Positions 5,681-16,572 of a stretch of DNA of 16,572 nucleotides are shown here, one piece after another. The translations under genes were made by a program, and so were the position numbers. The stretch's first letter is position 1. Each line of letters starts with the position of its first letter. The notes below the pieces were generated by a model. It ran no database searches. It was given only the letters and a program-made list of their open reading frames with translations, and was not told the DNA's origin. This DNA comes from Candidatus Omnitrophota bacterium (lineage in GTDB: Bacteria; Omnitrophota; JACPQZ01). The stretch lies in the NCBI GenBank assembly GCA_016190205.1, contig JACPQZ010000049.1:1-16572 (forward strand), given 5' to 3'.

Positions 5681-6369
5681 TCACCACTTGTCGTTCTTGG
5701 CAAAAGATCAGGCCGCCGCTCCCGCGTGCGTTTGAGGGCCTGGCGGCGGCGCCAATCGTTGATCCGCCTGTGATCCCCGCTCAAAAGCACGGCCGGAACG
5801 CGCATCCCATCGTACACGGCCGGACGCGTATATTGAGGCCCCTCCAGAAGGCTGTTTTCAAATGATTCGTGACAGACCGAATGGCGGTCGCCCAAAACAC
5901 CGGGCAAAAGCCGCACCACTGCATCTACCACTACCATGGCCGGGATCTCACCTCCGGTCGTCACCACGTCGCCGACTGAAAGCTCTTCGTCCATGAGGGC
6001 CCGGCGGGCCCTCTCATCCATGCCCTCATAATGACCGCACACGAGGATGAGCTTTTTAAGACGCGCAAGCCGCTTGGCGACCTTCGTAGTAAAAGGCCGC
6101 CCCTGGGGTGTGAGATAAACCACATGTGCCCGAGAACGCCCTTTCAGCGAACGAACCGCCGAAAAAACCGGCTGGGGGCTCAAGAGCATTCCGGGACCGC
6201 CTCCGTACGGCCGGTCATCCACTTTTCCGTGACGATCCAGCGTAAAGTCCCGGAGATCCACGATCTGAATCCGGACCTTTCCCTTTTCGCGCGCCCGCCT
6301 GATGATGGACTCATCAAAGGGTCCCCGGAACATGCCTGGGAACAGCGTGAGCACCACAAGGTCCAGCAC
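5599..6369 (-). CDS. trmD: tRNA (guanine-N1-)-methyltransferase
   Basis: It methylates G37 of tRNAs reading CNN codons and prevents +1 frameshifting. The SPOUT trefoil-knot blocks are present: LTLFPGMFRGPFDESIIRRA, RPYGGGPGMLL, LILVCGHYEGMDERARRALM, ELSVGDVVTTGGEIPAMVVV, and the C-terminal VPAVLLSGDHRRINDWRRRQ. An in-frame ORF runs upstream to 6423 inside rpsP, but homology begins at the GTG at 6367-6369, seven bases after the rpsP stop, giving 256 residues. The last 26 or so residues (GDRKIRISNTKMRNKSEIRN and on) are not family sequence; they are a translation of the TTCGAAAT repeat. The upstream neighbour is rpsP with no rimM between. Confidence 0.96.
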   Translation of the reverse strand: MLDLVVLTLFPGMFRGPFDESIIRRAREKGKVRIQIVDLRDFTLDRHGKVDDRPYGGGPGMLLSPQPVFSAVRSLKGRSRAHVVYLTPQGRPFTTKVAKRLARLKKLILVCGHYEGMDERARRALMDEELSVGDVVTTGGEIPAMVVVDAVVRLLPGVLGDRHSVCHESFENSLLEGPQYTRPAVYDGMRVPAVLLSGDHRRINDWRRRQALKRTRERRPDLLPRTTSGDRKIRISNTKMRNKSEIRNKKVKTNSL

Positions 6370-16224: not shown

Positions 16225-16283
16225 GCAGTTGCTGACTGGAACCGGACACCCTTCTCCGCAGATCGGCCCGGCTCGGTCCCTTC

Positions 16284-16571
16284 GGCCGCCGTCTGTTTTC
16301 CCCTGCTTCGCTCCATGACACGAAAAGCCTTCGGTGCAGCTTCGCAGGGTCGGTGTTCTCCTGGCCGGCTCGGGGAACGGCTGAACTCGGCCCGATTAAG
16401 CCCTCGCGCTTCCAAAATCAGCCCACTGGCTGATTTTCCCCCTCCGAAGCTCTCTTGCACATTAAACTTCGCAGAGCGAAGGAGGGGGCCGCGCTCGAAT
16501 CGGGCCTCAGACAGCAGCCGTTCTCTTTCCCTCGCCGCCTGCGGAGAACACCTAAAACAGCCGAAGCGGCC
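16284..16571. ncRNA. Candidate large structured RNA or folded repeat element upstream of polA
   Basis: No convincing gene covers 16225-16572. Seven compatible helices can be drawn. P1: 16284-16289/16566-16571 and 16293-16299/16554-16560. P2: 16301-16306/16344-16349, extended by 16310-16312/16338-16340. P3: 16352-16361/16543-16552. P4: 16375-16383/16515-16523. P5: 16389-16397/16498-16506. P6: hairpin 16414-16423/16428-16437. P7: 16438-16445/16481-16488, extended by 16449-16453/16473-16477. Listed pairs are perfect. P1, P2 and P3 meet in a tight three-way junction, as do P5, P6 and P7. P4 can be extended by two G-U pairs only if read on the plus strand, a weak hint of orientation. It could instead be a non-coding mobile repeat. 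No known RNA family was recognised, and the element may continue past the window end. Confidence 0.6.
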
Positions 16572-16572
16572 T

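Follow-up and report, generated by a model that had tools for sequence, protein, structure and literature searches.

The window (the whole stretch analysed, 16,572 nt, contig C39 of its genome) ends within a dispersed repeat. With a probability of roughly 75%, the feature at its end belongs to a MITE-like or REPIN-like non-autonomous repeat that we infer to be mobile, one copy of which is truncated here where the contig stops. The repeat is non-coding, occupies approximately 17 intergenic places, has inverted ends, and is composed of modules A and B, each structured and separate from the other, with compensatory changes preserving the fold. Across the phylum, the core of module B occurs as a multi-copy element. 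The segment at 16284-16571, which the earlier note had tentatively read either as a structured RNA of a new class or as a palindromic mobile element of the non-autonomous kind, is module A of this composite repeat and not a single RNA gene. The dispersed copies and their inverted ends speak for the mobile element; the RNA class was retained as an alternative in view of the partner module B, whose fold is conserved throughout the phylum and lacks a counterpart in Rfam.

The end of the window is strongly self-complementary. The predicted RNA fold of 16246-16572 had an energy of -149.4 kcal/mol, compared with -117.2 +/- 5.4 in dinucleotide shuffles (+ strand, z = -6.0; - strand, z = -4.4). Four helices placed here from the sequence alone (GGTGTTCTCC/GGAGAACACC to AAAATCAGCC/GGCTGATTTT, Table 1) were recovered where the earlier note had put them, as was the outer stem GGCCGC/GCGGCC that encloses them. 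The limits it had given hold for the outer stem of module A but not for the repeat, which starts at approximately 16266 and runs beyond the contig end. The partner of the left inverted end of the window also lies beyond the contig end, and all exact matches to GCCCGGCTCGGTCCC found by pattern search in the same genome fall within copies of A or B. Judging by sequence comparison, part of an inverted module B probably precedes A in the window. The same arrangement was found in the copy on G000:C36, and inverted B, whole or in part, lies upstream of A in L025 (B3 at 5971-6034) and L095. The adjoining gene is polA (- strand), followed by those for dephospho-CoA kinase, Rho, release factor 1, and MurA.

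Table 1. Parts of the dispersed repeat at the end of the window, with the evidence for each.
Feature	Position	Strand	Evidence
Inverted module B preceding A: probable remnant of its 3' end	16243..16260	-	Sequence comparison: CGGACACCCTTCTCCGCA with the reverse complement of B3, CGGCACCCTTCTCCGCG
Left terminal inverted repeat of the composite repeat, GCCCGGCTCGGTCCC	16266..16280	+	Pattern search
Module A	16284..16571	+	Stems GGCCGCC/GCGGCC, TGTTTT/AAAACA, GGTGTTCTCC/GGAGAACACC, GAACGGCTG/CAGCCGTTC, GGCCCGATT/AATCGGGCC; folds, repeats, ten-copy alignment
Hypervariable hairpin 1 of module A (CCCCTGCTTCGC...GCTTCGCAGGG)	16299..16350	+	Copy alignment: stem constant, tip varies in sequence and length
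Conserved hairpin 2 of module A, AAAATCAGCC/GGCTGATTTT	16414..16437	+	Inverted repeats, copy alignment
Hypervariable hairpin 3 of module A	16438..16488	+	Inverted repeats, copy alignment
Contig end within the repeat (assembly break)	16572..16572	.	Comparison with complete copies

The genome is a 1.65-Mb draft of 76 contigs, broken by repeats. The BLASTN search that the earlier note had suggested gave 19 matches to the element at approximately 17 places in this genome (78-98% identity). A further 57 genomes of the phylum yielded no match. Module B had 26 matches in the genome of the window. Besides C39, contigs C5, C8, C9, C16, C24, C26, C30, C37, C43, C59, C60, C63, and C65 end in or near the repeat, which accounts for assembly breaks in this genome. 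Complete copies are bounded by the inverted ends GCCCGKCTCG...CGAGMCGGGC, and in these A continues approximately 20-30 nt past the point where the window stops, to its own inverted end CCAAGCCGGGC. In most complete copies (approximately 10), A is followed by 15-60 nt of unique spacer and then by module B, which is absent from the window and terminates in the same inverted end as A (CGAGACGGGC). The order A5-Amid-A3-spacer-B1-B2-B3 was constant; the other forms were A alone, B'-A-B, and truncated copies. As in MITEs, the copies are multiple, dispersed, non-coding, and inverted at their ends. The outermost 5 bp of these ends covary within a copy, with 41 of 45 pairing compared with 31.9 between copies (p = 0.0007).

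Some B copies of this genome hold an optional insert of approximately 65 nt between B2 and B3, which contains the perfect palindrome CCGGTATACGTAGTATACCGG (L033 13731-14123, L092 5120-5260, L094 4337-4519, and L097 1-137); the others are precisely without it. A large imperfect palindrome (GGAAGCTATCCCGAAACC...GGTTTCGGGATAGCTTC) lies at approximately 5003-5170 of L030, immediately upstream of the C70 copy.

Compensatory changes, the absence of which would by the earlier note have spoken against its helices, were present in module A: 16 of 95 pairs had changed on both sides among ten copies. Several unambiguous double changes in the long stems come from the most diverged copy, C59a, and hairpins 1 and 3 had been replaced wholesale between copies and were still hairpins. 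Coding is unlikely and was rejected on two grounds: hairpin indels, of mixed length modulo 3, make the copies unequal in length, and stops leave no frame open throughout every copy checked; the conserved reading frame that the earlier note had offered as a counter-indication was likewise not seen in these copies. A covariance model of module A (R2) found it in its own genome and in none of the sampled relatives, although a model built from one genome could miss diverged relatives, as the corresponding model of B (R1) did.

The same pattern, on a smaller scale, was observed in 14 B copies of this genome, the stems of which were maintained with compensatory change. R1, built from the own-genome B copies, found 13 further genomes (14 in all), and the alignment of B cores from these 14 genomes gave a third model (R3). 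The B core is a three-way junction of approximately 130 nt, with changes on both sides in 30 of 33 pairs. Of the cells, 91.1% were paired, compared with 65.1 +/- 1.5% in shuffles. Covariation scored 0.61, compared with 0.19, and the signal was lost when partner columns were slid by 1-3. The conserved unpaired loops are GGGCAYGGT, GAGCGAAG, CCNCGCTGGGGC, and GAGCG. Compensatory conservation of secondary structure, as in a structured RNA class, was found in A and B. No relevant match to Rfam was obtained at gathering or permissive thresholds, B matching none of its families.

With R3, the B core was found in 1-20 copies in each of the 14 genomes. Of 384 genomes sampled from the phylum, 173 had it, probably a lower bound because the stricter search filters lose weak matches. 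It was present in 113 of 249 high-quality genomes and in 126 of 283 genera. R3 found it in none of 23 genomes of other groups (approximately 116 Mb), a control set picked by an unrelated chance pattern match and holding no positive control. Divergent pairs of B (doublets) occur in G299 and G342; they are rare and recall the B'-A-B form described above.

Two side observations concern B copies in other genomes. In two species of one genus (G222 and G329), a B copy occupies what appears to be the same site (L168 6354-6492 and L171 6354-6490), and the two copies are near-identical except for a wholly different P4 hairpin. A second dispersed repeat (..GTGCCAAAAATCTTCTAATTGTGCC..) of G242, G144, and G290 tends to adjoin B-core copies directly upstream (L228-L232, L256-L257, and L263-L267), and these genomes are therefore mosaics of several repeat families.

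Nearly all copies examined were intergenic; 13 of 98 B-core matches overlapped a crude open reading frame call. Among B copies with two clear flanking genes, 26 were antisense to both and 18 were sense to both, 8 lay between divergent genes, and 4 lay between convergent genes. This mixed orientation does not agree with an element tied to untranslated regions. Copies from unrelated places in one genome have the element in common and mostly not the flanks, and orthologous intergenic sites of related species hold a different repeat block. The flanks are inverted, not direct, repeats. A single candidate for a clean empty site was rejected, as it contained a related repeat arm. Neither a transposase nor a partner ORF was found between or beside the copies examined, as judged by reading frames and mostly without a family-library search; between nearby B copies there were only ordinary-looking ORFs. 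A pattern search for the inverted ends in the own genome, whose repeat-broken assembly could collapse or miss such a locus, gave no autonomous partner gene. Because the copies examined are nearly all intergenic, of mixed orientation, mostly without shared flanks, and without an adjoining transposase or partner, we regard the repeat as non-autonomous and probably mobile.

BLASTN against phages and plasmids gave no match. Scanning of genome contigs with an 18-mer gave 23 places, judged to be chance because alignment was limited to short stretches around the 18-mer. Twelve matches to the P5 motif in viral contigs were without the element fold and also look like chance.

The repeat would be mobilised in trans. 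One strand would adopt the multi-hairpin fold in single-stranded DNA, such as that of the lagging strand, or possibly in RNA after transcription. An enzyme whose gene lies elsewhere in the genome may then recognise the fold and its four conserved loops, and would copy or insert the element between genes. More tentatively, and at somewhat less than even odds, the B core of approximately 130 nt would be a previously undescribed class of mobile structured nucleic acid, whose folded strand (RNA or single-stranded DNA) and invariant loops are the substrate of the mobilising enzyme and which takes lineage-specific passengers such as module A.

The strand that folds appears to be the one read as +, because stem cells flanked by Watson-Crick pairs were G-T in 44 cases and A-C in 8, an excess partly biased by alignment to the covariance model. 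This excess fits RNA and single-stranded DNA equally. G-U made up 2.6% of standard pairs, compared with 4.6% in 15 tRNAs counted alike, which is a weak hint of DNA. Orientation and copy number favour DNA, and the conserved loops are neutral. The same evidence bears on the alternative of a new structured RNA class, in which B (and, in this lineage, A) is transcribed and acts in trans or in untranslated regions, the copies being paralogous RNA genes. We regard this as unlikely. A three-way junction conserved throughout the phylum with its unpaired loops, on a strand that tolerates G-T over A-C, is what such a class would show, but there are as many as 20 copies per genome, their orientation to flanking genes is inconsistent, and no conserved promoter or gene partner was noticed around the copies examined. 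The difference in G-U share from the tRNAs also counts against this alternative, weakly.

A narrower version of the preferred reading names the enzyme: the repeats would be of REPIN/BIME type, mobilised by TnpA_REP (RAYT). Like REPINs, they are intergenic and structured, sometimes form inverted pairs, and show compensatory hairpin changes (PMC3116915), and the genome has four Y1_Tnp (TnpA_REP-type) genes. However, the units measure 130-590 nt, compared with approximately 20-40 nt for REPs, and neither A or B modules nor a covariance-model match nor 12-mer enrichment was found near the four genes in this genome. The partnership is not supported by these own-genome tests, is weakened by them, and seems to us quite improbable. 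A Y1_Tnp (TnpA_REP-like) domain opens a protein of 415 aa (L026 1044-2291, - strand) with an apparent membrane segment and a C-terminal extension, which is possibly a domesticated transposase. One Y1_Tnp gene of this genome is flanked by small perfect palindromes (L104 1347-1370 and 2066-2107; ACACACATGTGTGT and GGGGTGTCTGGCAGACACCCC) that resemble those of IS200-type elements, are own to that gene, and are unrelated to A and B.

It is very doubtful that the copies serve to terminate transcription in both directions, or as hairpins to protect mRNA 3' ends, and were amplified by recombination. They often lie approximately 10-100 nt from gene ends and have ends of the form AAA-GC-rich stem-TTT, but the T-tracts are of 3-4 nt only, an internal three-way junction with conserved loops is needless for termination, and copies also occur between divergent genes. 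Hardly credible is a remnant of a HEARO-like (IscB omega-RNA) or other RNA-guided transposon, a guess of the earlier note that structure, many ORF-less copies, and RTGA-like left flanks in several loci, presumably resembling HEARO target sites, would favour: no Rfam HEARO match was found (E up to 1 at five own-genome loci and up to 5 at 17 loci of relatives), no RRXRR (IscB, PF14239) match was found in 14 genomes (a search without positive control in which the control genomes were silent too), no partner ORF accompanies the copies examined, and the variable P4 loop, rejected as a guide, matched its own flanks (7.16 nt) no better than other flanks (7.21 nt), which counts against a guide role.

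Interspersed palindromic repeats are usually short, near-identical within a genome, and restricted to narrow groups. Here a complex fold has been retained across a phylum in 1-20 copies per genome while its sequence was almost fully replaced, which points to a conserved recogniser. Such a recogniser makes the search for the enzyme concrete, as a gene whose presence tracks the element. The case also shows that covariation by itself is no proof of an RNA gene.

Several known systems resemble the mobile repeat proposed here. In IS200/IS605 ends and integron attC sites, one strand folds and serves as the substrate. In the loci examined, the repeat does not bound a transposase gene as IS200/IS605 ends do, and its copies are single dispersed elements, unlike the cassette arrays of attC sites. 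HEARO/IscB omega-RNAs are structured, multi-copy, and sometimes without an ORF, and are alike in these three respects, but no Rfam match or IscB-type protein was found here. NEMIS is a small intergenic non-autonomous repeat with inverted ends. The ERIC/IRU elements (RU-1, RU-2, and RU-3) are likewise small, intergenic, non-autonomous, and inverted at their ends, and measure 100-200 bp (PMC2759123, PMC2229807). The repeat described here is intergenic, non-autonomous, and inverted at its ends, like ERIC/IRU, NEMIS, and other MITE-like repeats. To our knowledge, repeats of the ERIC/IRU and NEMIS type are found in narrow groups with high sequence identity, whereas the B core is phylum-wide and has retained its structure through replacement of most of its sequence. 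REPINs and BIMEs are dispersed extragenic palindromes that occur many times per genome, with compensatory hairpin changes, inverted doublets, and no ORF (PMC3116915). The repeat shares these REPIN traits, and REPINs are its nearest analogue in behaviour. No copy of the repeat flanks the RAYT genes tested in this genome, and, compared with REPINs and BIMEs, the repeat is far larger and has a conserved three-way-junction core with conserved loops.
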